IMG/VR virus record: IMGVR_UViG_3300032282_004636
Coordinates: 1-21,161 of that record
Strand: one strand, 5' to 3'
Length of the DNA: 21,161 nt
Origin: a virus
Both the position numbers and the translations under genes were made by a program. Below the pieces are notes generated by a model. It was given only the letters and a program-made list of their open reading frames with translations. It was not told the origin of the DNA and did not search any database. Shown here piece after piece: positions 178-7,298 of the stretch. Each line of letters opens with the position of its first letter. Position 1 is the first letter of the stretch.

Positions 178-1284
178 CTATTGACCTTTGATCATCGACG
201 CGAGCACGTCGGCGTTGTCGCGGCCCGCGCCCCGGTCCAGATGCCCGTACACGCCCACCGTGGTCAGGATCGACTCGTGCCCCAACTGGGCCTGCACGGC
301 AGGCAGCGGTCGGCCCGCCGCGATCAGCCACGACGCGCAGGTGTGCCGAAGATCGTGCACCCGCGGCGTTTTCCTCAAACCGGCGTCGGCGGCGCGGGTG
401 ACCGCCGGACCCCACACGTTCGGGTTGAACGAGTGGATGCGTACCACCCCGTCGAGGTTGCGCCGGCCCCGCCCCGAATTGGTGAACAGCCACTCGCGGC
501 CGTAGTCCAGTTGGGCCAGGACGTCGTCGTCGACGTTGATGGTGCGGACGCTTTTCTTCGTCTTGGGCACACCCAACCGGTAGCCGCCGGCGCCGGTCTT
601 CCATGCCCGGGTGATCCGCACTGTCCCCGCGGCGCGGTCGACGTCGTCGGGCCGCAACGCCGTGGCCTCTGACCAGCGCGCCCCGGACACCACCAGGAAC
701 TCCACCAGTGGCCGCCAAAACTCGGGCACCGCATCACGGAGCAGGTGGTACTCCCACGGCTCCAGGAAACACATTTCGGCGCGGTCCCAGCGCGGCAGCT
801 TCACCTTGTCGCACGGGTTGGACCGCAGGTGGCCACGGTCCACGGCGGCGTTGAGCGCCCCCGCCAGATAGCCGTGCTTGTTGGCCACCGTCTTACCCGA
901 GGGCACCGACCCGTCGCGGTTACGCAGCCCGTTCATCCAGGCGGCCACATCATCGGGGGTCAGCGCCGCCACCGGAATGTCGGCCAGCGCCGCGAAGTCG
1001 TTGTCGGCGTAGGAGGTGTAGCGGGCGATCGTGCCCGCATCAACCCCGGTCAGGTGGGCGTTGTGGTGGGCCAGCCACTGCCCCACCGTCATCGCCTTGT
1101 CCGAGGCGATGACGATCCGGGTGATCTCCAAAGCCTTGACCGGCCCGACCTTGACCAGCAGCTCCTCGAACTGCATCGCCTCGGCGTGGTCGTTGAACGA
1201 CAGCGACGTCTGGCGGGCGCCGAGCCGGAACCGGACCTGGGTGTAGACCGACCCGTCCGAGCGGGTGCGGAAACGCAGCGACAT
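178..1284 (-). CDS. int: Tyrosine-family phage integrase
   Basis: A 368-residue tyrosine recombinase that would join attP to a host attB by way of a covalent 3'-phosphotyrosine intermediate. The N-terminal part (about 1-60) looks like an arm-binding domain. A SAM-like core-binding domain covers about 65-160 and the catalytic domain about 170-360. Visible active-site residues are Arg203 (in SGARWSEA), a Lys around 241-244 (TKKS), His310 and Arg313 (HDLRH), His336 (LGHES) and nucleophile Tyr346 (VYGHL). All are present, so the enzyme looks intact. The ATG at 1284 is preceded by a TACAAT only 7 nt upstream, which suggests a leaderless message. attP lies directly upstream (1304-1508). The C-terminus (ASMIKGQ) carries no obvious ssrA-like degradation tag. 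Confidence 0.96.
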   Translation of the reverse strand: MSLRFRTRSDGSVYTQVRFRLGARQTSLSFNDHAEAMQFEELLVKVGPVKALEITRIVIASDKAMTVGQWLAHHNAHLTGVDAGTIARYTSYADNDFAALADIPVAALTPDDVAAWMNGLRNRDGSVPSGKTVANKHGYLAGALNAAVDRGHLRSNPCDKVKLPRWDRAEMCFLEPWEYHLLRDAVPEFWRPLVEFLVVSGARWSEATALRPDDVDRAAGTVRITRAWKTGAGGYRLGVPKTKKSVRTINVDDDVLAQLDYGREWLFTNSGRGRRNLDGVVRIHSFNPNVWGPAVTRAADAGLRKTPRVHDLRHTCASWLIAAGRPLPAVQAQLGHESILTTVGVYGHLDRGAGRDNADVLASMIKGQ

Positions 1285-1545: not shown

Positions 1546-1552
1546 AGGCAAC

Positions 1553-1581
1553 AAAAAACGGCCCCCACCCGAAGGTGGGGG
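1553..1581 (-). terminator. Strong rho-independent terminator after the tmRNA-like RNA
   Basis: On the minus strand CCCCCACC (1581-1574) pairs perfectly with GGTGGGGG (1569-1562) around a TTCG tetraloop. CCG and then six T residues (1558-1553) follow. The hairpin begins 3 nt after the CCA end of the tmRNA-like RNA, so it should define that transcript's end. It also stops late transcription before attP and int. Confidence 0.92.
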
Positions 1582-1584
1582 ATG

Positions 1585-1668
1585 TGGTGGAGCCGGTGAG
1601 AATCGAACTCACGTCCAGTCCGGTGCCGCGTGCGGCTTTCGTCGGTCTGTCGAAACCATTCCGGCCCC
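1585..1668 (-). ncRNA. ssrA: Miniature tmRNA: tRNA-like domain without a tag reading frame
   Basis: The 84-nt RNA begins GGGGCCGGAATGGTTTCGAC, the conserved tmRNA 5' end, and ends in CGGCTCCACCA. Acceptor arms 1668-1662 and 1595-1589 make a complete 7-bp stem with a G3-U pair, the alanyl-tRNA synthetase identity element. The T-arm is GTGAG/CTCAC around TTCGATT (1612-1596). The D-loop is tmRNA-type (GGTTTCGA). A P2-like helix joins CAGACCG (1649-1643) to CGGACTG (1622-1616) with one A-A mismatch, capped by a GCCG-CACG-CGGC hairpin (1636-1625). Normal tmRNAs are several hundred nt, with a tag frame and pseudoknots; none fits here. CCA is encoded and a terminator follows. Its first G is the last base of the preceding stop codon, so RNase P processing from the late transcript is likely. 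It could be a decayed relic, but the intact pairing argues for function. Confidence 0.85.
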
Positions 1669-1898
1669 TAGTCGGAGTCGACGTCGGAGTCGCACCGTAA
1701 CTCCAAGGCCGCCCGCATCAACCCGTCTGTCTGCCAGTCCGGCTGCTCGGGCGGTGACCAAACCCACGGTGTGGACTCGACCCGCCCATCGACGATGCGC
1801 TCCAGGCCCAAACAGATCACGAACTGGTCAACCTGCCATCCGTCACCGTCGTCAAGAATCTTTTGGATGCATCGCCGTAAATATTCGGCGGCGTTCAT
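1668..1898 (-). CDS. Small conserved-looking phage protein, unknown function
   Basis: 76 residues starting at the ATG at 1898, which overlaps the upstream stop as ATGA. A longer in-frame start at 2000 would run deep into the upstream gene and is rejected. The protein begins MNAAEYLRRCIQKILDD and contains FVICLGLERIVDG and STPWVWSPPEQPDW. It reads as a compact alpha/beta protein with an acidic end (DSDVDSD). It resembles small mycobacteriophage proteins I have seen near lysis genes, but I know no function. Its TAG stop shares its G with the first nucleotide of the tmRNA-like RNA, so it is the last protein gene of the late transcript. Confidence 0.75.
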   Translation of the reverse strand: MNAAEYLRRCIQKILDDGDGWQVDQFVICLGLERIVDGRVESTPWVWSPPEQPDWQTDGLMRAALELRCDSDVDSD

Positions 1899-2119
1899 CT
1901 GCCCATCCAGACCGCCAGCCGGTGCAGCGGATCCAGCGGGGCCGGCCACAGCCGCAGCAGATGCGCCGCGGTGTACACGATGCCCACCGTCGTCAGCCAC
2001 CGATGTTTGGCGCGGTAGCGGTCAACGGCCTCCGACAGCAGTTCTCCGGGCGGGGCGGCGATCTCGTAAACCGCCACCCCGACAGCCAACGCGATCCAGG
2101 CGCTGTCGCCGTGCCGCAT
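1895..2119 (-). CDS. Small two-segment membrane protein
   Basis: 74 residues (begins MRHGDSAWIALAVGVAVYE). One hydrophobic segment covers about 8-24 and a second about 43-58 (TTVGIVYTAAHLLRLW). Between them is a charged stretch, LLSEAVDRYRAKHRW. This pattern matches small membrane proteins common in mycobacteriophages (DUF7427-like, from memory). It could assist lysis or act in superinfection or immunity; nothing in the sequence decides. The ATG at 2119 lies 5 nt after the upstream stop, and the gene overlaps the next by ATGA, so translation is probably coupled. Confidence 0.72.
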   Translation of the reverse strand: MRHGDSAWIALAVGVAVYEIAAPPGELLSEAVDRYRAKHRWLTTVGIVYTAAHLLRLWPAPLDPLHRLAVWMGR

Positions 2120-6710: not shown

Positions 6711-6822
6711 CGTCATCGCCGAAGTTGATGTCGTCGTTGAAAACGCCGCCGGCGGCGCCGAGCCAGAAGCTGCCCCCGAGGACGATCACGATGAGGACGC
6801 ACCCCAGGATTGCGCGTCTCAT
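6703..6822 (-). CDS. 39-residue membrane peptide with acidic tail
   Basis: ATG 6822 overlaps the stop of the collagen-like gene as ATGA. The product starts [20 protein letters not shown] and ends NFGDDDD. A basic N-terminus, one hydrophobic helix (about 4-22) and a strongly acidic end give a single-pass or signal-anchor layout. A Cys at position 8 is present, but no clear lipobox context. Coupled overlaps on both sides support real translation. Function unknown; the neighbourhood points to lysis or envelope interaction. Confidence 0.55.
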
Positions 6823-7298
6823 ATTGTTGCCGTGCCGTCGGAGTTGTCAGTGATGGTGGGAGTTGCGCCGGTCGGGCCGGTTGCACCGGTCGGGCCGGTC
6901 GCACCGGTCGCGCCTTGCGGGCCGGTCGGGCCGGTCGGGCCAGTCGCCCCTTGCGGCCCGGTGTCGCCCTTCTGGCCTTGAATCCCTTGGGCTCCAGTGG
7001 CACCCGTGTCACCTTTAGATCCCTGCGGGCCGGTCGGGCCCGTAGGCCCCATGGACCCGGTAGCGCCAGGGTCACCGTTGAGGCCCTGCGGCCCAGTGGC
7101 TCCAGTGTCACCTTTCGGGCCTTGAATACCCTGCGGGCCGGTCGGGCCAGTCGCCCCTTGCGGCCCGGTAGCGCCCTGCGGGCCGGTAGCCCCGGGCAAT
7201 CCAGTGGGGCCAAGCACCAGAATCCGCTCAACGGTGGGAGGTTCGGCGATGGCGACGTCAACAACGTCGTCCTGGTGGATTACGACGCTATCCGTCAT
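6819..7298 (-). CDS. Collagen-like minor tail protein
   Basis: 159 residues. A short N-terminal head (1-29) is followed by 39 uninterrupted Gly-X-Y triplets (30-146) and a 13-residue end. Triplets such as GPT, GPQ, GAT and GDT recur. Phage collagen-like stretches form triple-helical rods in tail fibres and often show length variation. The head would trimerise or attach the rod; the tail ([13 protein letters not shown]) is short, so no large receptor domain is attached. The ATG at 7298 overlaps the upstream gene by 11 nt. It follows the fibre-like and LtfC-like genes and precedes the lysis block. Confidence 0.9.
6861..7211 (-). repeat. Low-complexity Gly-X-Y coding repeat
   Basis: 39 in-frame GXY codon triplets produce imperfect 9-nt-based DNA repeats, for example recurring gggccggtcgggcc on the plus strand. 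It is a likely spot for slippage or recombination that changes rod length. Confidence 0.85.

Follow-up and report, generated by a model that had tools for sequence, protein, structure and literature searches.

Among the tmRNAs described for phages, that of Mycobacterium phage DS6A was listed in 2014 as 'TLD only' (PMC4131195), meaning that this mycobacteriophage RNA is little more than the tRNA-like domain (TLD). An RNA like that of DS6A was reported to strongly inhibit tmRNA in E. coli (Mao et al. 2009, as recounted in PMC4131195 and PMC11915505), whereby, according to the account in PMC4131195, the inhibition did not need chargeability. Later, nine 'standard, no CDS' sequences were identified among 97,179 tmRNAs (PMC11915505, 2025), and DS6A was treated as a single phage case in both PMC4131195 and PMC11915505. 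For TLD-SmpB, the formation of polyalanine without mRNA was described in vitro (Shimizu and Ueda 2006, as cited in PMC3929946). tmRNAs are also encoded by Bxz1, Wildcat, phage G and other phages, but these are full-length and were listed as ssrA without a 'TLD only' remark (PMC4131195).

The RNA described here is encoded by a 21,161-base linear viral contig from IMG/VR, which was analysed over its whole length and is referred to as the window. It is likewise one-piece and phage-borne, whereby it is likened to the DS6A RNA by description only. The 5' GGGGCCG..GGTTTCGAC, the T-arm, G3-U70 and CCA are shared with bacterial tmRNA (ssrA, RF00023), whereas the window RNA possesses neither the tag reading frame nor the pseudoknots and comprises 84 nt as compared to a model of 374 positions. 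A tRNA-like domain without tag frame is also known from CDS-less mitochondrial tmRNAs (RF02544) and from the ~65-bp tmRNAs of Mallomonadaceae plastids, but both are organellar and the mitochondrial ones are usually permuted, in contrast to the window RNA, which is of one piece and has its own terminator. With DS6A having been reported, the kind of RNA is therefore already known, and the remark of a first-pass annotation of the window that no such RNA was known from a phage does not hold, the more so as further phages carry it. New are this member, the breadth of the family, its conserved apical hairpin and its strictly conserved charging signals; for the latter three, no description was found among the open papers that were examined, a body of text which omits most subscription journals.

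The RNA gene and its surroundings

The window RNA is a TLD-only tmRNA and belongs to a phage RNA family which is widespread and whose structure is conserved. Its 84-nt gene occupies positions 1668-1585 on the minus strand, reads GGGGCCGGAATGGTTTCGACAGACCGACGAAAGCCGCACGCGGCACCGGACTGGACGTGAGTTCGATTCTCACCGGCTCCACCA and includes an encoded CCA. The following parts were identified:

1585-1668, minus strand: TLD-only tmRNA gene
1662-1668, minus strand: acceptor stem 5' strand GGGGCCG, holding G3 of G3-U70; 7 of 7 pairs
1649-1657, minus strand: D-region GGTTTCGAC, its GG at least 90% conserved in the family though the search left GG out
1617-1648, minus strand: P2 stem, A-rich internal loop and apical hairpin, replacing pseudoknots and tag frame
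within 1617-1648, minus strand: P2 stem AGACCG/CGGACT with one A-A mismatch; 5 of 6 outer pairs
1625-1636, minus strand: apical hairpin GCCG-CACG-CGGC
1596-1612, minus strand: T-arm GTGAG-TTCGATT-CTCAC (RF00023 alignment; the T-stem covaries in the family)
1588-1595, minus strand: acceptor 3' strand CGGCTCC and discriminator A73 (RF00023 alignment and family)
1552-1581, minus strand: strong intrinsic terminator, 8-bp stem and T run, starting three bases past CCA; CCCCCACC-TTCG-GGTGGGGG-CCGTTTTTTG occupies 1581-1562

RF00023, the Rfam tmRNA model, covers the element end to end (model 1-374) with 68.0 bits (E 7.7e-25; gathering score 47 bits), whereby some 300 central model positions are absent from it, and this is the sole tmRNA match within the record. 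On a covariance model of the family (R1), which was built from relatives with the window left out, the element obtained 65.6 bits, the tRNAs of the same phages reaching at most about 26 bits. Thus a tmRNA model and a TLD-only model, the pair proposed by the first-pass annotation as a check, both support its claim of a tmRNA reduced to the tRNA-like domain. The acceptor, the D-region GG..TTCGAC and the T-arm are all present (RF00023), together with G3-U70 and A73, whereby the D-region corresponds to the conserved SmpB-binding region of tmRNA. Just 32 nt separate the D-region from the GGAC, pseudoknots PK1-PK4 are absent, and the insert offers no tag reading frame leading from an Ala resume codon to a stop; the loss of both elements and the presence of an own terminator had been recognized correctly from the start. 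The assumption that all helices are intact held true insofar as the helices are under selection, as judged by family covariation, but the A-A mismatch in the P2 of the window departs from it. ARAGORN did not report the element on the window, presumably because it has no tag. A permuted tmRNA match at 1559-1612 was discarded, as its 29.5 bits are below the cut-off of 47 and the same T-arm together with the terminator stem accounts for it. The minimum-energy fold of the window sequence alone does not give the tmRNA fold (z -1.5); single-sequence folding is hence uninformative, and the evidence for the structure comes from the covariation seen in relatives, which is considered decisive.

The surroundings of the RNA gene comprise:

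1668-2000, minus strand: DUF7213 gene, upstream of the RNA (Pfam PF23850, E 1.6e-13)
1895-2119, minus strand: DUF7427 gene, used to locate relatives without the RNA (PF24202, E 5.5e-29)
178-1284, minus strand: tyrosine integrase (PF00589, E 4.3e-18), 55% identical to Mycobacterium phage Peanam
1349-1395, minus strand: attP-like tRNA 3' end adjoining the integrase, separate from the TLD

The DUF7213 gene is the last late gene, and its TAG stop shares one base with base 1 of the RNA; it is 46% identical to the gp38 region of Mycobacterium phage Aminay, and a search of IMG/VR with its protein revealed no relatives. The integrase, holin, DUF7213, DUF7427 and DnaQ-like genes group the contig with temperate mycobacteriophages that are similar to those of clusters F and K. 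At 6819-7298 (minus strand), amid tail and lysis genes, a collagen-like GPT/GPQ repeat protein is encoded. The stretch at 1349-1395 shares 89-93% identity with sequences located at the tyrosine integrase of Gordonia phages and probably represents attP, its acceptor appearing tRNA-Ala-like by eye.

The closest relatives at the locus, i.e., 21 DUF7427 loci in IMG/VR, do not possess the RNA (no match exceeding 18.5 bits), and in one of them (L261) the DUF7213 stop is directly followed by the terminator. Considering this, the RNA looks like a gained accessory gene, inserted between the last late gene and the late-gene terminator. The first-pass annotation had named a full-length tmRNA in relatives, with a private deletion in the present copy, as the case speaking against its view; relatives at the window locus were found to carry no tmRNA of any kind.

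Breadth and covariation of the family

IMG/VR was scanned with a pattern in which TTCGAC, the GGAC/T-arm letters and TCCA were fixed, with 18-48 free bases between, and at least 120 stretches were obtained. Once duplicates and five odd matches had been discarded, 92 distinct RNAs were kept among the matches listed, a set which includes the window and four rows of known phages and whose loci form, among these listed matches, 42 DNA clusters without 300 bp of detectable mutual similarity (GC 36-65%). Matches L020 and L089 were regarded as chance or unrelated, and L048, L064 (longer P2) and L104 (shorter) were kept out of the statistics. L048 (11908-12002) and L064 (11235-11329), each 95 nt in length with a greatly extended P2 stem and a paired acceptor, may form a subclass.

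Altogether, TLD-only RNAs are found in more than 80 IMG/VR contigs, and blastn revealed the same RNA form in the Streptomyces phages LuckySocke, GiJojo, BRock and pSt2308 and in Stenotrophomonas phage Jojan60. One TLD adjoins the capsid gene of Pontimonas phage phiPsal1, for which a complete record and a cultured host are available. DNA searches against known phages with three carrier regions gave none or distant relatives only. The copies in known phages are unannotated or lie under a dubious ORF; the start of GiJojo gene 44 (L006 2999-3241), an annotated protein which may be spurious, overlies the TLD gene. Large phages carry the element within tRNA clusters, a location found in several carriers, and many others have no tRNA close by. 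Two TLD-only genes (L055, L082) are present in a viral record of 135,953 bases (G009), and another one of 123,582 bases (G003) encodes a 392-nt full-length tmRNA plus a TLD-only copy (L022/L281, L280). From one odd case, DS6A, the view is thus extended to a family of more than 80 distinct RNAs from some 40 groups of viral sequences, which spans actinobacterial phages as well as a phage of Stenotrophomonas. Almost all of these RNAs lack an annotation, probably because the tag is what gene finders search for.

When the pattern was applied to 84,980 genomes of bacteria and archaea, 107 matches were obtained, 8 of which pass the stem filter. When seven TLD-bearing bacterial genomes were searched, a full-length tmRNA was identified in five (116-174 bits) and a 390-nt tmRNA match, scoring 70 bits and lying at the end of a contig, in the sixth; the seventh, Prochlorococcus, gave no full-length tmRNA match, which was perhaps missed owing to a permuted gene. 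The element thus occurs mainly in viruses and side by side with the tmRNA of the host. An Acidimicrobiales MAG and Parafrankia sp. EUN1f (L180, L242) have TLD-only genes that are followed by terminator-like inverted repeats.

Common to the family are the acceptor, the T-arm, P2 and the apical hairpin. A MAFFT alignment misplaces the acceptor and the P2 register, so the statistics rest on an anchored count and a model-fitted alignment. In the anchored count, whose positions were set by the flanking motifs only and are hence independent of the model-fitted alignment, the six outer P2 pairs are paired in 92.5% of cells (92 RNAs, among the matches listed) as compared to 43% +- 2.3% with partners shuffled. 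For the second alignment, 101 distinct matches were fitted to a covariance model from 14, window excluded; here 96.1% of cells are paired and the covariation score is 0.715 as compared to 0.145 +- 0.009 after shuffling and no more than 0.11 after sliding, whereby this alignment leans towards its own model by construction and contains six weak matches. Changes on both sides are seen in each of the four helices. The compensatory changes in acceptor, T and P2 stems, which the first-pass annotation had suggested to seek in relatives, do therefore exist, and its argument against random decay is upheld family-wide.

G3-U70 is present in 92 of 92 RNAs (among the matches listed), U70 having been among the letters searched for. 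In a second scan, for which the acceptor was not used as criterion, all 33 distinct elements have seven acceptor pairs, G1-C72, G2-C71, G3-U70 and A73, with acceptor pairs 4-6 varying freely between several pair types. G3-U70, A73, G1-C72 and G2-C71 are identity elements of AlaRS, so chargeability with alanine seems to be under selection. An encoded CCA is missing from many relatives. The idea of a hidden short tag was rejected, as Ala..stop frames occur in 20 of the 92 inserts (among the matches listed) as compared to 24 expected from shuffles, with none above chance. Commonly, the apical hairpin reads AAAG-CCGCAYGCGG-A, while CCACAAGTGG and other covarying forms occur as well and an A-rich loop precedes it; we know of no tmRNA counterpart to this hairpin.

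Possible functions during infection

The window RNA probably serves as a TLD decoy, which competes with host tmRNA and thus suppresses trans-translation during infection. The suggested mechanism assumes that transcription of the late operon probably continues through the RNA gene up to its own terminator, whereupon host RNase P would trim the 5' end of the RNA and host AlaRS, as the strict G3-U70 and A73 imply, would charge it. Next, the RNA may bind both SmpB and EF-Tu of the host. It would thereby compete with host tmRNA for SmpB as well as for stalled ribosomes whose A site is empty. As it provides no template, tagging of proteins and release of ribosomes would fail, and trans-translation would be suppressed. 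This reading is favoured because of the family covariation, the invariant charging signals, the presence of host tmRNA, the missing tag frame and the lack of SmpB in carriers, which was found in none of 37 other whole carrier records (control: 10 of 14 genomes), while in the window record, a 21-kb fragment, none of ten scanned proteins is SmpB. It is further favoured because, as far as the cited accounts go, a DS6A-like RNA inhibits tmRNA and TLD-SmpB acts on ribosomes template-free in vitro. The many relatives without encoded CCA and the fold of the window itself, which does not favour the tmRNA fold, count against it. According to those accounts inhibition does without charging, yet the charging signals are strict; the natural function may hence be expected to involve the ribosome itself, which suggests that simple titration of SmpB is not the whole story.

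One could speculate further, with considerable reserve, that TLD-only tmRNAs form a common phage RNA class needing alanylation, whose members would, together with host SmpB, gain access to stalled ribosomes and attach alanine without a template, trans-translation thereby becoming a dead end or an alanine-tailing that favours the phage, with the apical hairpin as specific functional part. The polyalanine synthesis cited for TLD-SmpB leaves room for such tailing and equally for a minimal rescue factor, in which Ala-TLD and SmpB would take over the stalled chain and peptidyl-TLD would be freed otherwise (peptidyl-tRNA hydrolase or ArfA/ArfB-type release), so that the phage recycles ribosomes while its own proteins stay untagged. 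The strict alanylation identity, implying work on the ribosome beyond binding, and the persistence of CDS-less mitochondrial tmRNAs alongside SmpB argue for rescue, but hosts already possess a full tmRNA and the similar RNA was recounted to inhibit rather than help in E. coli, which makes this function unlikely. A regulatory or protein-binding RNA, with the apical hairpin as its main business and the TLD for stability or maturation, would agree with the conservation of that hairpin, but it would not need the strict alanine identity signals and is considered improbable.

That the element is what decay has left of a full-length tmRNA, be it of the phage or of the host, could be read from the P2 mismatch of the window and from the one related record in which a full tmRNA and a TLD occur together. 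This view is already contradicted by the compensatory changes in all four helices; intact charging signals, the own terminator and locus relatives without full tmRNA speak against it as well, rendering it highly implausible. Hardly any credence is given to an integration-site relic, i.e., a phage copy of the host ssrA 3' end serving as attP: some mycobacteriophages do integrate in the tmRNA gene and the integrase is close to the element, but both tmRNA ends are present instead of the 3' part alone, and the same element resides in tRNA clusters of large phages and, in phiPsal1, by the capsid gene. The relic was rejected on the separate tRNA-type attP at 1349-1395, which adjoins the integrase.

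The decoy reading and the breadth of the family suggest that RNA-mediated interference with ribosome rescue is common among phages, an idea which is testable because carriers are available from public records (BRock, LuckySocke, GiJojo, pSt2308, Jojan60) or as cultured strain (phiPsal1). As a separate observation, permuted tmRNA genes that are not covered by any annotated gene were identified in Achromobacter phage JWDelta and Tunturiibacter phage Tunturi_5 (L008 1970-2354 and L010 1966-2262; RF04321, 96 and 86 bits).
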